Shown: one piece after another, positions 689-10,098 of the stretch
How positions within the stretch are numbered: the first letter of the stretch is position 1
Layout: the number at the start of each line of letters is the position of its first letter
Source of the DNA: Planctomycetota bacterium
GTDB taxonomy: Bacteria; Planctomycetota; Planctomycetia; Pirellulales; Pirellulaceae
Direction: 5' to 3'
Assembly: GCA_026692885.1 (NCBI GenBank)
Contig: JAPLNJ010001209.1
Location: 1-10,367 of the forward strand
Length of the DNA stretch: 10,367 bases
Notes under the pieces: generated by a model
What the model was told of the DNA's origin: nothing
Database searches by the model: none
Seen by the model: only the letters and a program-made list of their open reading frames with translations
Position numbers and translations under genes: made by a program

Positions 689-832
689 TCAGATATTGAA
701 ATCCTCGGCAGTCTGTCGCGCCGGCGGTGCCTGAGTCGACGTCCGGATGAAACACGCGGCCACCATCCCGATGATTGCGCACAGCGCGATGAAAATCCAG
801 CCCGACGTGTAGTCATTCGTGCCGTTCTTCTC
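689..832 (-). pseudogene. C-terminal tail of a membrane transporter
   Basis: Reading from the junction at about 832 to the TGA at 689-691 gives NEKNGTNDYTSGWIFIALCA followed by IIGMVAACFIR and a polar tail ending AEDFNI. A single hydrophobic helix with a charged stop and a short cytoplasmic tail resembles the last transmembrane segment of an MFS-type permease, but this is resemblance only. The rest of the transporter is absent: the DNA immediately upstream is FAD oxidoreductase copy 1, and the tail continues in the same frame as that gene's C-terminal coding frame. The sialidase start lies 67 bp downstream, so oxidoreductase, transporter and sialidase were probably neighbours in one operon before the deletion. 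The family is uncertain. Confidence 0.55.
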
Positions 833-1385
833 GTTCTGCCAACCCTGCGGCACCAGAATGCTGTAGGGGATGCCGTAGCACTCGCCCGGCTTCAGGCGGC
901 CGGTCTGCGTGTACTCCTGATAGCTTGTAGCCTTCGGGATTGAACGGCGTCCAGCAATGGAACCACTTGCTGTAGAAATCCTCCGTCACCTGGGGCGCGA
1001 GGAACCCGCGGCGGTGCATCGTGGTGACAATCTCCCGCATCAGGCCGCCGACCAGCATCCGCTCGCCGTTGGCCATCGGATCGAACGCGGTGACCAAGCC
1101 CGAGGTGCCCATGCCGCCCAGGCAGCCGGTGGCTTCCACGAGTAGCACCTTCGCGCCCAGCCGCGCGGCACACACGGCCGCTGCCGTACCCGCCGGCCCG
1201 CCGCCGGCGACGACCAGGTCAAAACCTTCCTCGGCAGGAATTTCTCGCGTCAGGCGGTAGGTCGGCTGCGAGCCGGTTGGCGAACCCTCGGTCGCCGGTG
1301 CTGCCGACGCTTGGCCCAGCCCTGCGACGTCGACCGCGCCGACCGCGGATGACAATAGGAACGAACGCCTGGTAGTCTTCTCCAT
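833..1385 (-). pseudogene. FAD-dependent oxidoreductase, copy 1, internally deleted and 3' truncated
   Basis: ATG at 1385 follows GGAGG with about 6 nt spacing. The protein starts with a Tat-like leader (KTTRRSFLLSSA), then an FAD-binding Rossmann segment FDLVVAGGGPAG near residues 55-66 with the acidic strand end LLVEA. After ...WTPFNPEGYKL (residue about 154) the frame carries only 36 out-of-family residues to a stop at 813. One frame away, family sequence resumes at EYTQTGRLKPGECYGIPYS and ILVPQGWQN, the region close to the C-terminus. About 270 residues normally between these blocks are missing, judged from memory of the family. The gene then fuses at 832/833 to a transporter tail. Members are secreted flavoproteins, often beside sugar-degradation genes. 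It is about 92% identical to the copy at 2534-3323. Confidence 0.85.
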
Positions 1386-1519
1386 GTCTGCCTCCAGTTA
1401 CTCTTACGGGAATGGTAGCGCTCCCGCCTATGAGAACACCGACGGCCCCTGCGCTCCGACCGTTCGATCAGTTGAGCCCATGGTGGACCAGTCCTCCCGT
1501 CTCCTTTTCCTCTCTGGGG
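1386..1519. other. Intergenic spacer with no recognised gene
   Basis: The first bases next to the gene hold the Shine-Dalgarno sequence of FAD oxidoreductase copy 1, and similarity with the leader of copy 2 ends about 11 nt upstream of the start codon. I see no convincing promoter, hairpin or coding segment in the rest. A promoter for the oxidoreductase would be expected here because the upstream gene is unrelated. Confidence 0.4.
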
Positions 1520-1957
1520 TTACTGGCGAATCCCGGTGACAGGACGGCGCAAGAAAGTCATCGCTTGACCGTAGATGTCTCCGGCCAGGGATTCCAGTGA
1601 ATCGTGGATCACGTCCTCAAGTGCTCCGAGCTTGCTCGTCCAACGTCCGTCCGAGCGTTGCTTCGCGGCATGTTTGGGAGCCGCATCTTTGGTATAGAAG
1701 GCAACCTTTTCGAGTCCTTGCTCCCAGGCCGGATCCTGGCACACTTCGTAGCCTAACGTCGCGAATGCAGCAACAAACGCTTCCAGCGTCGCTTCGCGCG
1801 GAACGCCCGACGGCCAGAAGGTCTCCTCGGCGGGAACCGGCCACCACCAGTGACGCTCATCGCCGGCCGCCCAGGCGATGCAATTGTAAGCGTCCGACTG
1901 CGGGCTCGTGATTTCGTAGTCGGATTCTGCCAGCTTCGGAAAGATCGCTTCGAGCAT
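1520..1957 (-). CDS. DUF7689 family protein, candidate papain-like fold
   Basis: A 145-residue soluble protein without a signal peptide. I recognise the family from its pattern: ITSPQSDAYNCIAWAAGD (residues 16-33) with Trp-rich HWWWP, then FWPSGVPREATLEAFVAAF, GLEKVAFY, KHAAK around His97, and RWTSKLGALEDVIHDSL (105-121). The conserved Cys26 in YNCIAWA, followed by a His after a beta strand and a W-SKLG motif, resembles the Cys-His layout of NlpC/P60 or CHAP enzymes. That is my inference; no function is established as far as I know. The ATG shares one base with the TGA of the upstream gene (TGATG), so the two are translationally coupled, and that overlap fixes this start although the frame is open upstream to 2209. 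Length and motifs look complete. Confidence 0.8.
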   Translation of the reverse strand: MLEAIFPKLAESDYEITSPQSDAYNCIAWAAGDERHWWWPVPAEETFWPSGVPREATLEAFVAAFATLGYEVCQDPAWEQGLEKVAFYTKDAAPKHAAKQRSDGRWTSKLGALEDVIHDSLESLAGDIYGQAMTFLRRPVTGIRQ

Positions 1958-2361
1958 CAGACGCACCCCCGGTCCCGTCCCCACTGCAGCCAGTCTTGTG
2001 TCATGGCCTGGACGTTGCCGCAATGTTCGGGCGGGACGGGGTTTTCTCCCGTGATGGCTCGCAGCGCCCAGAACCAGTGACCGCCTCGGTTCCGCATCTC
2101 TTCGAGGATGAACGGCAACGCGGTTTCGCCCATTCCGATGATCGTCTGGTACGCAGGAAGCATGGCCCGGTCTGTCGAAGAGGACAGCGGCGCCGCTTGC
2201 TCGCGCCACTGGGCTGCCAGCATTTCAAATCTTGCTTTCGAGGCCGCAAGTTGATCGACAAAATCCCTGATCAGCTTGTCGAGCGTTGTACGACGTTCGC
2301 CGGCCGCCTGTTCGGCCTGCTGCACGGTTCGTTCGTCAAGAGAAACAGTGATGGTGGTCAT
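1957..2361 (-). CDS. Ribbon-helix-helix domain fused to the usual DUF7689 partner domain
   Basis: A 134-residue protein from ATG 2361. Residues 2-9 (TTITVSLD) form a plausible beta strand, followed by two helices (ERTVQQAEQAAGERR, then TTLDKLIRDFVDQL). This is the layout of VapB-like ribbon-helix-helix antitoxins. From about residue 45 the sequence changes to a conserved domain known as the neighbour of DUF7689 genes: AYQTIIGMGETALPFIL, GGHWFWALRAITGENPVPP and MTQDWLQWGR. Its end overlaps the DUF7689 start by one base. A longer reading from 2454 is possible, but the extra 31 residues look non-conserved and Arg-rich. The Shine-Dalgarno (GGAACGAG) is weak. The fusion suggests that the DNA-binding half could autoregulate the pair, as in toxin-antitoxin operons; this is inference. 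Confidence 0.75.
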   Translation of the reverse strand: MTTITVSLDERTVQQAEQAAGERRTTLDKLIRDFVDQLAASKARFEMLAAQWREQAAPLSSSTDRAMLPAYQTIIGMGETALPFILEEMRNRGGHWFWALRAITGENPVPPEHCGNVQAMTQDWLQWGRDRGCV

Positions 2362-2533
2362 TGCGGTTCTCGTTCCAGTTGTAGGGATACGCGACCTTAG
2401 TGGTAATTGTAACCCACTCCGCCGCAATTTGTCAGCCAGTCTTGCGGCAGGCAACGGCTCGGCGTGGGTCCCTGCGAATGGTTCGTCTTCGCGATACCCA
2501 GCCGTGCCACACGAGTCTTACCTCGGGCCCGGC
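2362..2533. other. Spacer between FAD oxidoreductase copy 2 and the DUF7689 pair
   Basis: About 170 bp with no supported gene on either strand. It should contain the promoter and operator of the ribbon-helix-helix gene. I could not find a clear palindrome or -35/-10 pair by eye. The stretch is less G+C-rich just upstream of the start (2395-2425), as expected for a promoter. Confidence 0.35.
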
Positions 2534-3323
2534 TCACGCCTTCCCGCGGGTCATGTGGCGGCTGAGGTTCTCTTGAGGCAGATAGGCATCGGCACGGCGG
2601 AGCGACTCGACCAGCGCGGCCGTGTCGAGCTCGCACGCACTCTGACCAGTGGCCAGTGATTGCACCGCTGCCGTGCCCGCCGCCTGGCCCATCATCGAGG
2701 CGGCAGGCTGGACGCGGATCGAGCCGTGCACGCGCACGTCGCTGGAGTTGCAACGGCCCGCGACCCATAGGTTCTGCCAACCCTGCGGCACCAGAATGCT
2801 GTAGGGGATGCCGTAGCACTCGCCCGGCTTCAGGCGGCCGGTCTGCGTGTATTCCTGACAGCTTGTAGCCCTCGGGGTTGAACGGCGTCCAACAATGGAA
2901 CCACTTGCTGTAGAAATCCTCCGTGACATGAGGCGCAAGGAACCCGCGACGGTGCATCGTGGTGACAATCTCGCGCATCAGGCCGCCGACCAGCATCCGC
3001 TCGCCGTTGGCCATCGGATCGAACGCCGTGACCAAGCCCGATGTGCCCATACCGCCCAGGCAGCCGGTGGCTTCCACGAGCAATACCTTCGCGCCCAGCC
3101 GCGCGGCACACACGGCCGCCGCCGTACCCGCCGGCCCGCCGCCAGCGACAACCAAGTCGAAACCTCTCTCGGCAGGAATCTCCCGCGTAAGGCGATAGGT
3201 CGACTGCGAGCTGGTTGGCGAACCCTCGGCCGCCGGTCCTGCCGACGTTTGGCCCAGCCCTGCGACGCCGGCCGCGCCGACTGCGGATGACAATAGGAAC
3301 GAACGCCTGGTAGTCTTCTTCAT
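2534..3323 (-). pseudogene. FAD-dependent oxidoreductase, copy 2, internally deleted
   Basis: ATG 3323 has GGAGG about 7 nt upstream; a GTG at 3335 overlaps that site and is rejected. A Tat-like leader (KKTTRRSFLLSSAVGAAGVAG) is followed by the FAD-binding FDLVVAGGGPAG, LVEATGCLGGMGTSG, and ...TPFNPEGYKL. At about 2850-2860 the reading frame must move to continue the family sequence: EYTQTGRLKPGECYGIPYS, LWVAGRCNSSDVRVHGSIRV, QPAASMMGQAAGTAAVQS, ending QENLSRHMTRGKA at the TGA 2534-2536. The C-terminal part is complete, including the GRCNSSD and GQAAGTAA segments that contact FAD in relatives. Roughly 270 central residues, the substrate-binding part, are missing. Without frameshifting, translation continues out of family to 2397. 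The junction is the same as in copy 1. Confidence 0.87.
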
Positions 3324-3383: not shown

Positions 3384-3570
3384 TCACGGCTTGGTCGGGG
3401 CGTGCAGTTGCCTCACGATGAAATCCCTGATGTCCTCGTAACCCTTGGTGGGATGTCCATGAGCTGAAGCGGACTCGGCCCGTAAGAAACGTCGGCGTGC
3501 GTCGGGACGGGTTTGGGCGGGATGGATTTTGGTGCGGCGCCCGGTGTCGCCGCTCCAGCACCAACAGCGG
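3384..3570 (-). pseudogene. Alpha/beta-hydrolase (esterase) reduced to its two ends
   Basis: A Pro/Ala-rich stretch leads to PTHADVSYGPSPLQLMD (about 3459-3510). This matches the extreme N-terminal region of planctomycete esterase/lipase proteins, where YGPHxxxxLD precedes the HGGG oxyanion loop. At about 3452-3460 it is joined, in a different frame, to HPTKGYEDIRDFIVRQLHAP and a TGA at 3384-3386, which looks like the C-terminal helix of such an esterase. The whole catalytic core (HGGG, GxSxG, Asp, His) is absent, so this cannot be active. Upstream, the reading frame is continuous with the end of the serine hydrolase; either a true linker or a third fusion explains that. The frame without a shift ends at 3413. 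Confidence 0.55.
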
Positions 3571-4374
3571 CCCTTCCGTATTTCTCAATTGCCGCTTTCA
3601 TAGATGCGCCGTAGAACTCCTTTTGCTCTGGCCCGGTCATGTCGAAACGCTCCACGAGGAGCACCATCGCAAGGCCGTTGTGTGGGTCAACCCACATCGC
3701 CGTGCAGCGCGCGCCGCGATGGCCGAAACTGCCGGCGCTCGGGCCTTCTTCGTCGGTGAGCTTCACGCTCCAGCCGATGCCGTAGCTCTCCTGCCGACCT
3801 CAATGATGCGTCCGCCGGTGTTGATGCCGCAGTTGTTGTATTCGTACTAGGTGCCCGGCTCCTGGCGCAGCGGGCGCTTGGCGTATTTGAGCACGTCGTC
3901 CTTCAGCACCTGCGTGCGTTTCAACGTCTTCTCGCTGGCGAGCACGAGGCCGCTGGTGTGGCTCATGATCTCACGCACGGTGATCGGGTGCCGTGGCGGA
4001 TACGCGGGGGCCTGGTCATTCCCGGTGATCGTCTGCCCCTTGAACTCGGGCAGGTACTTTTCCACCGGGTCGTCCAGGCTCACCTGGCCCTGGTCCACGA
4101 GCATCATCAGCGCCGCGTCTGTGAGCGACTTACTCATCGAGGCGATCCAAAACACCGCGTCTTCGCGAATCGGCGCCTTGTTCGCGAGACTGGCGTAGCC
4201 GGCTTTGTCCAGTGCGAGCACGCCGTCCTTGTCCGCCACGAGCGCGACCACGCCGGGCGCGATGCGCTTCTCCACAAATGATTGCAGCACCGGCGCGAGG
4301 ACGCTCGGCCCGTCGGCGGCGTGAAGCGACGCACTGCCAAGGACGAAGAAGACAATGGTTGCGTAGAGTTTCAT
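3571..4374 (-). pseudogene. Serine hydrolase (beta-lactamase/class C family), nonsense codon plus internal deletion
   Basis: ATG 4374 begins a signal peptide (MKLYATIVFFVLGSASLHAA). The N-terminal half has the family hallmarks: the SxxK nucleophile motif SMSK at residues 79-82, LDDPVEKYLPEF, and HPITVREIMSHTSGL with the conserved HTSGL (139-143). After RQEPGT a TAG (3847-3849) stops translation, yet the same frame continues in family: YEYNNCGINTGGRIIEV, including the YxN motif that holds the general-base Tyr. At about 3788-3796 it jumps to a different frame with SYGIGWSVKLTDEE and GSFGHRGARCTAMWVDP, where GHRG corresponds to the third (KTG-like) motif, and ends near IEKYGR. Around 100-150 residues between the second and third motifs are gone. 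The intact enzyme would be a secreted esterase or peptidase-like hydrolase. Confidence 0.85.
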
Positions 4375-4429: not shown

Positions 4430-4526
4430 GGGTCTGTCGTTCAAATTTCATTCTTCGCGGCTTGGAAGGCCTTTTCTGCTGGCGGAGTCTGTGCGCCGCG
4501 AAGAATGACATTTGAACGACTGACCC
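4430..4526. repeat. 97-bp palindromic element with 32-bp arms
   Basis: Left arm 4430-4461 and right arm 4495-4526 are reverse complements with two mismatches. The inner 26 bp (4436-4461 against 4495-4520) have one mismatch, and the loop is 33 nt. The arms include TTCATTCTTCGCGGC and its complement. It lies between two divergent gene remnants, upstream of the serine hydrolase and ahead of the PIN remnant, so a terminator role is unlikely. It resembles a miniature inverted-repeat element (MITE) or dispersed planctomycete palindrome. I see no flanking target-site duplication. Confidence 0.75.
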
Positions 4527-4604: not shown

Positions 4605-4711
4605 GAACCAGGCAAGGGATCGCGAGCCAGACGCGATCGCGAGCGAAACCGCTCCTCCACCACAACGACACTGCCGAGTTCGCCGAGTTGTTTCGGGAAT
4701 TGAGTTCCGTG
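4605..4711. repeat. Probable dispersed planctomycete repeat joined to a PIN gene
   Basis: This segment contains two direct copies of GATCGCGAGC (4618-4627 and 4635-4644). They are followed by CGAAACCGCTCCTCCACCAC and a GCCGAGTTCGCCGAGTTGTT stretch. I recall very similar segments read through in many planctomycete proteins (NSANSAVSLWW on the other strand), which suggests a dispersed repeat. Its right end coincides with the place where recognisable PIN-domain coding begins. The boundaries are approximate and the identification rests on memory. Confidence 0.4.
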
Positions 4712-4837
4712 GGCCGGGTGATGTCACAATTCGACTTGCTGATTGCGGCGCTGGCTCGACAACGGGGGCTGATCTTGCTAACTGCCGACCAGGATTTCCA
4801 GTCCGTCACCGGGCTTGATGTCGAGAACTGGTTCTGA
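4712..4837 (+). pseudogene. VapC-type PIN-domain toxin, C-terminal remnant
   Basis: The last 41 codons of an open frame read GRVMSQFDLLIAALARQRGL, LILLTADQDFQSV, and GLDVENWF with a TGA. This is the C-terminal third of a PIN ribonuclease: the Asp in SQFDLLIAA and the TADQDF motif supply two of the metal-binding acids, and the ENWF ending is typical of VapC. The N-terminal part with the first catalytic Asp is missing. The frame upstream (to 4376) runs through the palindromic element and the dispersed repeat and has no PIN features. No VapB-like gene stands directly upstream. VapC enzymes cleave tRNA or rRNA; this remnant should be inactive. Confidence 0.75.
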
Positions 4838-4930: not shown

Positions 4931-5930
4931 TCATTCAAGTGAATCCGATGCGCCATCCGGCATGACGAACGCAAAATCAGTTGAGCCAATTCTTCCGAGT
5001 TCAGCGACCTTTCCGCACCAATCCTGCAATTGGGCTGCGGCGGCGTGCGTGTTGATGTAGACGTTCCCGATCTGTGCTTTCGATCGATGGAACCGATCTT
5101 CATTCATCGCGATCACGGCAGTCAAAGTCCGTTCCGTCGCGATGCGCAACAATAACCCCGGACTGCTCGCGTCGAATTGCTTGAGCAATTTAATGAACGC
5201 ATCTTTCCAGCTCGTGACGGGCTGCTGATGGTCACGAAACCGAATTCTCACGGGCGGAGTAATCGCTCGCTTCTCGTGTTCGATAGAAATGGACTCTCGA
5301 CCAACGTCGCTCCAAATCTTGATTGCGCGCTGCGCGAGCGCACGGCCTCGTTCGCGGATTGCGTCCGGCGACCAACGCACGACGGTGGCGAAGTGGCGAT
5401 TCAATACGAAGTGACTGTTGGCGACATCTCTTTGTTTGACCACGTATGGTCTATTCGACAACTCGGCGTTGTATTTCGTCAGCGTAAGATTCCCGAGCGT
5501 GTGCAGCAGGTGTGACGAATGCTCCTCTGCTCCGTCTCCGAGTTCGTGTTCCCACTCTGGAGTCAGCGTCTGCGGCAGCACATGCTCGATCTGCGCTCCA
5601 GAAAGTTCCGCTGGTTCTTTGTGATTGAACGAAAGCTCAAGCCTTTCGAGGATCAACCGGAGCCGTGCATTTTTCTCGGCGGTTGAATAGAGCGGGTCTG
5701 TTGCGAGCTTCACAGCAAATGCTTCGTCGTTGGGACAACGCGTTCCACCTAATTGTTTACGAAGTCCATCAACGAACGCCGAACCAGCACCGCCAGCCGC
5801 ATCGAACACCGGCGGCAGCATTCGCCGCAACTGGTTGGTCGGCATACTGCAAATCGATCGACGAATCACGAACGACTCAAGCAAGTCCAGAGTCTCAAGC
5901 ACTTGCTCGTGATTGAGCACCGGCCGAATG
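4931..5930 (-). pseudogene. GmrSD-type restriction protein lacking its DUF262 domain
   Basis: The open frame spans 4931-5971, but its first 15 or so residues are antisense to a transposase. GmrSD-like sequence starts near PVLNHEQVLETLDLLESFVI (residue 17). The helical middle is followed by the DUF1524 nuclease domain: IEHVLPQT (128-135) with the His of the His-Me/HNH motif, and HTLGNLTLTKYNAELSN (157-173) with the conserved GNLTL and Asn. Residues 240-346 form an extra C-terminal domain ending LGRIGSTDFAFVMPDG. Intact GmrSD enzymes (type IV restriction, cutting modified phage DNA) have an N-terminal DUF262 domain with a ParB-like NTPase fold and some 200 more residues, absent here. The truncation lies exactly at the ISAzo13 remnant. 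The remaining frame has no stop or shift over 330 codons, so the loss may be recent. Confidence 0.8.
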
Positions 5931-5934
5931 TTGC

Positions 5935-6343
5935 TGGAAGATTTGAAGCTTGGAGTCCGACAGGCCCGCAAGGACGAGGCGACTTGCCACTACGCCCTCC
6001 GCAACGGGCAGTTCGCATATCTTGCCGAACAGCGGGATTGGTATCTGCGACAAGGCTGGCCGGTGCTCAGCATCGACACCAAGAAAAAGGGAACCGTTGG
6101 GCAACTTTTTCCGCGCTGGAACGGCCTACACGGACTCGCTTCTGAAGGTGTGGGATTACGATTTTGCCTCGCAGGCGAAGGGGAAGCTTGTCCCGTATGG
6201 ACTCTACGATTCTGCTCGGAACGAAGGTTTCGTGCTGTTGTCTCTTGGTGCCGATACCAGCGAAATGGTCTGCGACGCCATTTGGCGCTGGTGGCAAGTC
6301 ACTGGCAAACAACACTATTGGCATGCCTCCGGGCTGCTTCTCC
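5935..6343 (+). mobile_element. ISAzo13-family transposase remnant, truncated at both ends and frameshifted
   Basis: Frame 1 (from about 5935) reads FAYLAEQRDWYLRQGWPVLS then IDTKKK, the conserved VSxDTKKK strand of ISAzo13 transposases. At 6081-6091 (AAGAAAAAGGG) one extra base moves the family sequence to the +1 frame: EPLGNFFRAGTAYTDSL, VWDYDFASQAKGKLVPYGLY, DSARNEGFVLLSLGADTSEM and IWRWWQVTGKQHYWHASGLL. It stops matching at about 6343, just before the GGG-S-N motif and the second catalytic acid. The first quarter of the protein and the whole C-terminal half are gone. No inverted repeats or target duplication can be recognised. The apparent long frame continuing to 7005 is antisense to another gene and not part of the transposase. 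Confidence 0.85.
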
Positions 6344-7582: not shown

Positions 7583-8851
7583 ATGTACACGCGTAGGGCG
7601 TTCTTGACGACGGCGATCATTGGTTCCGCGGTTGGCGGCGCTCTGGGTTGGCGAACGCTCCTCAGGGCGGCGGACACGAAGCCGCTAGTCGTGCGCGATG
7701 CGAAGATCATTCGGGTCGGTGATCGGCGCAAAGGCGGGCCAAGCGATTCGTACCTGGAGATCGCGAGCCAGTCCGGACTGAAAGGTCTTGCCGGGCCGTT
7801 GCTGACGGAGCAGGTCGCGGCCTTCCCGGCGAACCTGCGCGAGTTGCTGGCGGGGCGCGACGCTGCCGCCCCTGAGCAACTCAACTTTGGTACGCTGTGG
7901 GCCGCGTGCCATCCCGGCAAGACGCTGGAAAGCTACGTCGACGGGAAGGATCCACTGACCGGCGCACCGGTGTGGGGCACGAAGCGGACGTCACGGCAGA
8001 CGGAGACCGGCTGGGTGATTACGGCCCTGAGCGCGATCGACCTGGCGCTGTGGGACCTACGGGGCAAGGCGGTGGGACAGCCGGTCTGGCGGCTGTTGGG
8101 TGGCCAACGCCAACAGCTGAACGCCTACGCCAGCATGCTGGGCTATTCGGTCCAGCCGACCGAAGCGAGAAAGGCAGCCCGTGACATGTTTGACCGCGGA
8201 TTCCATCGACAGAAGTGGTTCTTCATGAAGGGCCCCGCCGACGGAGTCGCGGGTCTTAAGCAGAACATCGAGCTGGCGCATGCGGTGCGCGAGGAACTCG
8301 GGCCGGAAGCGATCCTAATGTTCGATGGCATCCAGTACGTGTGGAAGTCGGTCGACGTCGATTACGCGATTGCGCTGGCCAAGGGGATTCTGCCGTGCCG
8401 ACCGCACTGGCTGGAGGAGCCGTTGCGCCCCGACGACCTGGACGGCTACACTCGCCTGAAAGGCGAGACGGGGATCACGCTGGCCGCGGGCGAACACTGG
8501 TACACGCGCTGGAACGTCAAGCCGTTTCTGGATCGCGGGATTGTCAGCTTCGTGCAGTCAGATCCAGAGTGGTGCGGTGGGATCAGCGAATGGCTGAAGA
8601 TCTGCGAGTTGGCCAAGAAGTATCCGGGCGTGCAGGTCGTTCCGCACGGGCACCATGTTCTGGCGGCTTCGGCTTGCGTGGCATCGCAAAGTGAGACGCT
8701 CTGCCCGATGTTGGAGTACCTGATCCAGTCGCGGGTGGCGTTCCAGCGTTGCCAGACCCGCCCCTTGGTGGCCGAAGCGGGAACCTTTGCGATGCCGGAA
8801 GAGCCCGGCCTGGGCCCATCCCTTGACGAGGCCCGATGGGAAAGGGTGTAA
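7583..8851 (+). CDS. Mandelate racemase/muconate lactonizing enzyme-like protein, exported
   Basis: An intact 422-residue protein of the enolase superfamily. The start is supported by GAAGGAG some 10 nt upstream. The N-terminus is a twin-arginine-type leader (YTRRAFLTTAIIGSAVGGAL, then LRAADTK). The capping domain runs to about residue 140 and the barrel starts near ALSAIDLALWDLRGKAVGQP. Likely catalytic positions: Lys211 and Lys216 in QKWFFMK on the second strand, metal ligands Asp248 (LMFDG), Glu278 or Glu279 (HWLEEPL) and Glu304 (AAGEHW), with QSDPEWCGGI (325-334) and His355-His358 (PHGHH). These enzymes abstract a proton next to a carboxylate, typically dehydrating or racemising sugar acids. 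Export would place it in the planctomycete periplasm. The substrate cannot be told. It is the only full-length metabolic gene in the window and stands divergent from the broken secreted-protein gene. Confidence 0.92.
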   Translation: MYTRRAFLTTAIIGSAVGGALGWRTLLRAADTKPLVVRDAKIIRVGDRRKGGPSDSYLEIASQSGLKGLAGPLLTEQVAAFPANLRELLAGRDAAAPEQLNFGTLWAACHPGKTLESYVDGKDPLTGAPVWGTKRTSRQTETGWVITALSAIDLALWDLRGKAVGQPVWRLLGGQRQQLNAYASMLGYSVQPTEARKAARDMFDRGFHRQKWFFMKGPADGVAGLKQNIELAHAVREELGPEAILMFDGIQYVWKSVDVDYAIALAKGILPCRPHWLEEPLRPDDLDGYTRLKGETGITLAAGEHWYTRWNVKPFLDRGIVSFVQSDPEWCGGISEWLKICELAKKYPGVQVVPHGHHVLAASACVASQSETLCPMLEYLIQSRVAFQRCQTRPLVAEAGTFAMPEEPGLGPSLDEARWERV

Positions 8852-8867: not shown

Positions 8868-9011
8868 TATCTTTGCAGCCAGCCAAAGGCTGGAAATACA
8901 AGCACGACGCGCAAGCGAGTGCGTCAGGGGTGGACCGGCAAGCGAAATCCAGACTCACTCGCTTGCGCGTCGTGCTTGTAAAATACCGGCCTCCGGCCCG
9001 TTTAAAGATGT
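8868..9011. repeat. Palindromic dispersed element downstream of the enolase-family gene
   Basis: A perfect 25-bp inverted repeat (8897-8921 against 8956-8980, containing AAGCACGACGCGCAAGCGAG) encloses a 34-nt spacer. Outside it, weaker symmetry continues: ATCTTTGCAGCC...GGCTGG on the left matches CCGGCC...GGCCCGTTTAAAGAT on the right. The whole is an imperfect palindrome of about 144 bp carrying a small hairpin in each arm (CCAGCC-AAA-GGCTGG on the left). I know this core as a recurrent planctomycete repeat (read through as HDAQASAS or TRKRV). It begins 17 bp after the stop codon and could end transcription, though it lacks a U tract. Confidence 0.8.
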
Positions 9012-9497: not shown

Positions 9498-9575
9498 CTG
9501 AGCGATGGTGTCCACGGATTCTCCGGTGGCCTGCCCGTCATTCTGTGCCGCACGTCATTCACCGAGCCGGCACTT

Positions 9576-9816
9576 CTAGTAATCCGAGTGGCGGCTGTGA
9601 TGCTTGACCACCAGAATCCGCAGGCAGTCTTCTTCGTGCCGGTAGTAGATGGCGTACGTTGACCACAGCCCACCGATTAGGCGCGGCCTGGATTTTGGAA
9701 ATCGCCGCGCCTAACTCGCGCAGGAACCGTTCTCCCAAACCCGCGACGTGCTGCTGGTAGAATCGCACCGCGTCCAGAAGTTCCTCTTCGGCGTCGGGGT
9801 GATAGACGATCTTCAC
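9576..9816 (-). pseudogene. RelE/ParE-family toxin with small internal deletion
   Basis: A GTG start at 9816 overlaps the antitoxin stop (GTGA), which fixes the start. The first 47 or so residues are a normal ParE N-terminus: KIVYHPDAEEELLDAVRFYQ, GLGERFLRELGAAISKIQ and PNRWAVV. At about 9655-9666 the sequence continues in a different frame with YAIYYRHEEDCLRILVVKHH and SRHSDY, the standard C-terminal strands, ending in TAG 9576-9578. The piece normally between them (roughly 12-15 residues with an R-R-L-x-x-FP pattern) is missing, so the frame shifts and the unshifted frame runs on to 9559. The intact protein would be a ribosome-dependent RNase or gyrase inhibitor held by the adjacent antitoxin. 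The toxin is very probably dead. Confidence 0.8.
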
Positions 9817-10043
9817 CCCAGAACTCGCCGTGCGGCGTCCATCACCTGCTCGTGGGAACGGCCGATTGCTTGGCCGGAAGTGAGTTCTGCGTCGCGACGC
9901 ATCGCCTGCTGGATGGCATCTTGATCTTCACTGTCCGAACTCGGTAGGCCCTCGTCAATGCTGGCCCACAGCGTCTGCGCCAGTGTCACGCGGTCGACCA
10001 GCGGCAATGTCATCGCCGCCTGCAGCACTTCTTCGTTGGACAT
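9813..10043 (-). CDS. Addiction-module antitoxin (PF09720-like)
   Basis: A 76-residue acidic protein: SNEEVLQAAMTLPLVDRVTL, AQTLWASIDEGLP, then an acidic linker and AMRRDAELTSGQAIGRSHEQ with a final MDAARRVLG. The A-L-P-x-x-DR-x-x-LA-x-x-LW-x-S-(I/L)-DE pattern is the hallmark of the short antitoxins that precede ParE/RelE toxins. Its TGA overlaps the toxin start by four bases, giving translational coupling. ATG 10043 gives the family's usual start; ATG 10049 (MFMSN) is equally possible, and neither has a clear Shine-Dalgarno. A dispersed repeat begins 20 bp upstream. The C-terminal half should bind and neutralise the toxin. Confidence 0.85.
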   Translation of the reverse strand: MSNEEVLQAAMTLPLVDRVTLAQTLWASIDEGLPSSDSEDQDAIQQAMRRDAELTSGQAIGRSHEQVMDAARRVLG

Positions 10044-10063
10044 GAACATGAAAGCGATACGCA

Positions 10064-10098
10064 CAGCGGCGTCAAGCCGCCGCACTCCAAAACGCCGC
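10064..10098. repeat. Dispersed CGGCTTGACGCCG-type repeat
   Basis: On the minus strand the stretch reads GCGTTTTGGAGTGCGGCGGC followed by TTGACGCCGC. The right half forms a hairpin (GCGGC-TTGAC-GCCGC). I recognise it as a recurrent repeat of planctomycetes and relatives, read through as GVLECGGLTPL. It sits directly upstream of the antitoxin start and downstream of an unidentified coding remnant, so it may mark a rearrangement boundary. Confidence 0.6.

Follow-up and report, generated by a model that had tools for sequence, protein, structure and literature searches.

How can two neighboring genes carry the same internal deletion, joined at the same base, when the differences between them appear to have accumulated while each was still a working gene? 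The question is raised by a stretch of 10,367 bases, analyzed at its full length (the window) and probably a whole contig, whose minus strand holds two copies, here A and B, of an FAD_oxidored (PF12831) gene ~1.9 kb apart. A first-pass annotation of this DNA had offered four options: a conversion tract that carried the deletion, repeated deletion at a hot spot, an expressed mini-protein, or an assembly artifact. As it had stated, the copies align without gaps back to their start codons, over 553 bases at an offset of 1938 and with 37 differences.

In both copies, codons 1 to 155 lie in one frame and are followed, from QEYTQTGRLKPGE onward, by sequence in another. The N-terminal part contains the motif GGGPAG, which we take to be the N-terminal dinucleotide-binding motif, and the C-terminal end of the PF12831 profile is also matched. 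Amino acid identity of the N part to the gene of a related locus, L001, is 74.7% for copy A and 73.9% for copy B. The C part of copy B runs to the normal C-terminus and is 82% identical to residues 405 to 511 of the L001 open reading frame (ORF), and the shorter C piece of copy A is 80% identical to residues 404 to 433 (tblastn, frame -2). Set against their family, the copies match profile positions 1 to 91 with their N parts and, in copy B, 334 to 416 with the C part; the middle of the profile is absent from both, and the frames disagree. Full-length relatives have ~500 amino acids, and neither copy has one continuous frame of that length including the middle. Since the middle is missing and the frame is changed, A and B are pseudogenes of the PF12831 family rather than working members. 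Copy A bears a second deletion or join at 832/833, where its C piece is fused to an unrelated tail (Table 1); the tail ORF had no Pfam match and matched none of 148 genomes in a search run without a positive control.

Table 1. Coordinates of the two FAD oxidoreductase copies and of neighboring features in the window
Feature	Position	Strand	Remarks
Copy A	1385..833	minus	Gapless alignment to copy B
Copy A, N-terminal part (codons 1-155)	921..1385	minus	PF12831 profile 1-91 of 416, E 1.9e-23
Copy A, junction	914..921	minus	CTA-T-CAGGAG
Copy A, C-terminal piece	833..920	minus	T + 29 codons (QEYTQTGR..PQGWQN); other frame than N part
Hydrophobic tail	689..832	minus	47 residues, unrelated, fused in frame to copy A C piece
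Ribosome-binding-site neighborhood of copy A	1386..1396	minus	TGGAGGCA + 3 bases; A/B flank homology ends here
Copy B	3323..2771	minus	Aligned part; whole copy extends to 2534
Copy B, N-terminal part (codons 1-155)	2859..3323	minus	PF12831, E 4.9e-23
Copy B, junction	2852..2859	minus	CTG-T-CAGGAA; same base as in copy A
Copy B, C-terminal part	2534..2857	minus	Complete, 107 codons + stop; other frame; PF12831 profile 334-416, E 5.2e-22
ORF between the FAD copies	1520-2454 region	minus	DUF7689 (PF24738) match, nearly complete
Beta-lactamase-family (PF00144) gene	3413-4374	minus	Two frames; stop codon at 3847-3849
BNR (sialidase-like) fragment	311-3	minus	Begins at ~residue 191 of L134 ORF
GmrSD_C (PF07510) ORF	4931-5971		Start of ORF overlapped by ISAzo13-type transposase remnant
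ISAzo13-type transposase (PF07592) remnant	5913-6330	plus	Split across two frames near 6090
Enolase-superfamily gene	7583-8851		Frame open

We located the junction with the ORFs of relatives (tblastn) and by base-level comparison. Frame -1 holds the N part, which ends at 921 in copy A and 2859 in copy B; frame -2 holds the C part, which starts at 922 in copy A (overlapping the N match by one codon) and at 2857 in copy B. The junctions read ..AAGCTATCAGGAGTACACG in A and ..AAGCTGTCAGGAATACACG in B, with a single additional T separating the Leu codon from CAG, and A and B therefore undergo the same frame change. Both the shared nucleotide and the shared frame change had been proposed from the sequence and were borne out, and the base-exact sharing of both breakpoints argues for a single deletion event. 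A large deletion was also correctly recognized, but its size had been put at about 800 bp; the absent middle is 732 nt long in L001, L003, and L004, and the N-to-C gap in relatives is 675 to 744 nt in 97 of 99 pairings (some from overlapping loci; the other two exceed 2 kb). Of the 246 invariant columns in a 12-sequence alignment, 107 fall within this middle. The differences beside the junction had all been read as silent. For CTA/CTG at 921 this is not the only reading: the A of CTA in copy A could, judging from a relative, derive from the C side, had that side read TAT CAG, and L004 has TAT at the place just before CAG.

A search of other genomes for the junction had been proposed; junction patterns were absent from the viral contigs and from all 139 fetched loci. 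In DNA searches of 345 and 397 genomes (the latter at E values up to 1e-20 only), no listed match extended far across the junction; those in G008, G034, and G035 start at query position 447, ~20 bases before it, with the N part ~1 kb away in each genome. Relatives of the gene itself were absent from viral contigs by either query and represented on plasmids by one distant Variovorax match (58% identity, 44% of the query). The nearest nucleotide outgroup, L001 in genome G001, is 81 to 83% identical, too distant to polarize silent changes. At the amino acid level a 137-residue protein, P0121, is closer, with 91% identity over 72% of the ORF of copy A among the best 120 of 245 matches. A second N-part match occurs in 4 of 80 loci of relatives, at 37 to 51% identity. 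One further relative, P0058 (172 amino acids, on a 1409-bp contig), seems by eye to jump from YSKWY to a shifted-frame C-terminal end, apparently through an internal deletion other than that of A and B.

The region around the two copies looks to be decaying. Pieces of the PF00144 gene map to residues 57 to 258 and 400 to 477 of the L124 ORF, and ~140 residues are gone near 3793 to 3796. We dropped the BNR gene as a candidate for internal deletion, as the ORF at 622-296 (minus strand) before the fragment had no Pfam match and no match among the ORFs of relatives; in contig C172 of G001, a BNR-like gene lies ~6 kb from the FAD gene. Between the FAD copies, a second minus-strand ORF without a Pfam match overlaps the DUF7689 ORF in the 1520-2454 region. 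Elsewhere in the window are a partial PIN-domain (PF01850) match at 4658-4810 (plus strand), an addiction-module (PF09720) ORF with an adjoining small ORF lacking a Pfam match at 9559-10085 (minus strand), and two inverted repeats, at 4430-4526 and 8897-8980, with 32-nt arms that are 94% complementary and are perhaps mobile or regulatory hairpins. The tetramer CAGG occurs near both FAD junctions (919 and 2857), near the PF00144 junction (3795), and near the point where the BNR region changes frame (~300), a post hoc pattern that is probably due to chance.

We asked whether the differences between the N parts bear the mark of selection, as the first-pass annotation had claimed from a count of 23 base differences affecting only two codons. 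The two replacements (E53R and Q132H) stand, but the base count does not: codons 42 to 155, the core, hold 27 differences in 25 of 114 codons, 23 of which changed silently. Neutral simulations with an equal number of changes gave a mean of ~17 replacement codons, and 0 of 2000 gave two or fewer (2000 runs at each of three transition-to-transversion settings, with the same outcome in each). The bias does not extend to codons 1 to 41, a probable signal peptide and linker that is variable across the family, where eight of nine differing codons are replacements against a neutral mean of ~5.7, so not fewer than neutral expectation. It is thus confined to the folded part. There, the proposal that selection acted on both copies is supported, and an ancestral deletion shared by both copies and followed by neutral drift is rejected. 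The silent bias therefore implies that constraint was acting on both genes while the core accumulated most of its divergence, and supports the view that most divergence between A and B predates inactivation. A Poisson bound that assumes an 8% background leaves up to about a fifth to a third of the core changes for the time after inactivation, and a share above ~30% is unlikely (P = 0.04 at 30%).

What the first-pass annotation did not contain is a step in divergence at the junction, and this step tells the order of events where the lesion itself does not. The copies differ at 36 of the 465 bases that precede the junction, compared with 1 of the 86 that follow it (Fisher P = 0.019). That single C-side difference is the GAG/GAA change, followed by 81 identical bases to the end of copy A (P about 0.003 for the terminal run). 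A single change point fits best after base 472, next to the junction (465-467), and 34 of 2000 permutations did as well. The contrast comes from 86 C-side bases, with modest P values; it gives modest support to a tract of raised identity inside a diverged paralog pair, with one edge visible as copy A ends at 833.

As a control, we compared the same N and C stretches in 3160 pairs of 80 loci, keeping the 171 with N divergence of 2 to 25% and an alignment of more than 100 codons on the N side and at least 27 on the C side (plus-strand matches only). The ratio of C to N divergence is 0.15 for A and B over all bases and 0.17 over silent changes, below all 171 homolog pairs, for which the minima are 0.26 and 0.22 and the medians 0.76 and 0.88. 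In the 133 pairs with both genes open in one frame, the minima are 0.40 and 0.22; the remaining 38 include a gene not testing as open. The pairs cannot be treated as independent, as 31 loci supply the 133 open ones, and only eight open pairs resemble A and B in N divergence (5 to 11%), with ratios of 0.42 to 1.49. In one pair of genes not testing as open, L065 and L067, there is 1 C difference against 15 N differences.

Identity before the start codons falls from 60% over 20 bases to 40% over 50 and 33% over 90, so that the homologous unit lies close to the coding part, and on the other side the likeness of A and B stops at 833. With 33% upstream identity over 90 bases, these are separate loci with unrelated flanks. 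Fading flanks are expected for old paralogs kept alike in their coding part only. Yet because just one core codon in five differs silently, paralogs born of a simple tandem duplication should still share some homology upstream, which counts against the reading proposed below.

We consider it on balance probable that A and B were two old, functional paralogs, that one suffered the deletion, and that this was copied together with its C flank into the other by non-reciprocal recombination. Among the four options first listed, a conversion tract is the best fit, because the raised identity begins at the junction and extends down the C side. Conversion or gap repair from the deleted to the intact copy would account for the shared breakpoints, for the silent divergence, and for the divergence step, which points to a recent transfer of the junction with its C side. 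By this account, A and B would have been long-diverged, functional FAD-dependent oxidoreductases of the PF12831 family, already placed as they are now, when one lost ~730 nt by a single illegitimate deletion; copy B would more likely have been the first, its C-terminal part being complete. Gene conversion or gap repair would then have carried the deletion to the other paralog: the N homology of the recipient would pair with the deleted copy as far as the breakpoint, the unpaired middle would be trimmed there, and synthesis would extend across the junction and into the C side for ~80 bp or more. The differences at 921 and 914, within 8 bases of the junction, count against conversion, since the tract must start almost exactly there; the trimming of an unpaired tail, a step we infer, would place the tract edge at the junction. 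The fusion at 832/833 in copy A may be part of the same repair event. In its fullest form, in which a broken end of A was templated on the deleted B, copied the junction plus ~87 nt, and finally underwent end joining with the tail of a membrane-protein-like gene unrelated to it, this contagious pseudogene formation in one repair event is a doubtful conjecture.

A different order of events is unlikely but would explain much of the same evidence: the deleted gene was duplicated, and one N part was later replaced, up to the junction, from an intact, diverged third paralog or homolog. Such a re-supply covers both the silent bias and the divergence step, and homology with an intact donor would stop at the junction by itself. 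However, a recent duplicate of the deleted gene should bring its flanks along, in conflict with the 33% upstream identity and the end of likeness at 833, and a third copy is required, whereas a repeat search of the window found no third copy of the long repeat.

We regard an assembly artifact as improbable to a similar degree; in that case neither gene would be damaged, and a middle common to the two would have collapsed and been dropped from each by the assembler. Such an artifact would be consistent with the PF00144 gene of the same contig also lacking its middle, and with copy-specific bases that flank the junction closely on either side, as they would where a collapsed repeat ends. Yet A and B agree at the six bases that separate the two flanking differences, and overlaps between unitigs normally bring more of a collapsed middle into the contig. 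At 92% identity the N parts would stay apart in assembly, so the middle would need far greater likeness. Furthermore, the missing lengths are unequal (~730 nt in the FAD copies, ~140 residues in the PF00144 gene), and a dropped repeat makes neither the stop codon nor the frame-split transposase of this region.

Independent deletion of both paralogs at one hot spot is quite unlikely. If the C side is taken from relatives to have read TAC TAT CAG, the junction of copy A permits 2 to 3 bases of microhomology (CT or CTA), and P0058 appears by eye to carry another N-to-C deletion in the family. However, the CTG-T junction of copy B suggests little or no microhomology, and the junction of P0058 lies elsewhere. 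The proposal is weakened by breakpoints that coincide to the base in A and B at either end of the deletion, and by a C-side divergence that is low for two independently diverged genes.

A conserved, translated mini-protein, in which programmed frameshifting would link the N and C parts and which selection would maintain, is scarcely credible and went unsupported: it would account for the silent bias on the N part, but copy A is without the rest of the C part, the absent middle holds the many invariant columns counted above, the shifted tail occurs in 1 of 231 proteins (the window's own P0001), and no N+C relative of ~260 amino acids appears among the best 120 of 3232 matches to a read-through query (candidates of ~144 to 458 amino acids, 7998 scored), which, P0001 apart, are 439 to 459 amino acids long. 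Among the best 120 of 245 matches there was likewise no relative that would make a mini-protein family, and this candidate was rejected.

Transfer of an indel by conversion between adjacent bacterial paralogs, our preferred reading of A and B, is already described. In Mycobacterium tuberculosis, gene conversion is reported to move an indel and linked substitutions between PE_PGRS17 and PE_PGRS18, tandem paralogs that are adjacent and up to 12% diverged; the pattern between the genes apparently does not move with them, and the authors propose DSBR or SDSA (PMC1762029). The likeness to A and B lies in the transfer of an indel between adjacent, diverged paralogs; the difference is that a 12-bp in-frame insertion is found there in many strains and a frame-breaking deletion of ~730 nt here in one contig (PMC1762029). 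In the duplicate tuf genes of Salmonella, the sections drawn on here state that conversion effectively starts anywhere in the gene and that tracts with nearby mismatches left unconverted occur (PMC5485169). Both features resemble what A and B would require, a start at any position and unconverted mismatches close by, whereas the tuf work is experimental and concerns point differences under selection, and those sections do not describe the spread of a deletion (PMC5485169).

The kind of event is therefore known, and the useful part is the divergence step as a means to order deletion and divergence. In its one-event form, contagious pseudogene formation would at once account for the shared junction, the near-identical C side, and the sudden fusion at 832/833. 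If the preferred reading is true, several paralogs can be disabled by one deletion. A shared lesion would then be no proof that inactivation came before duplication, which, although the mechanism is not new, would be a caution for the dating of pseudogenes and the annotation of decaying metagenome contigs.
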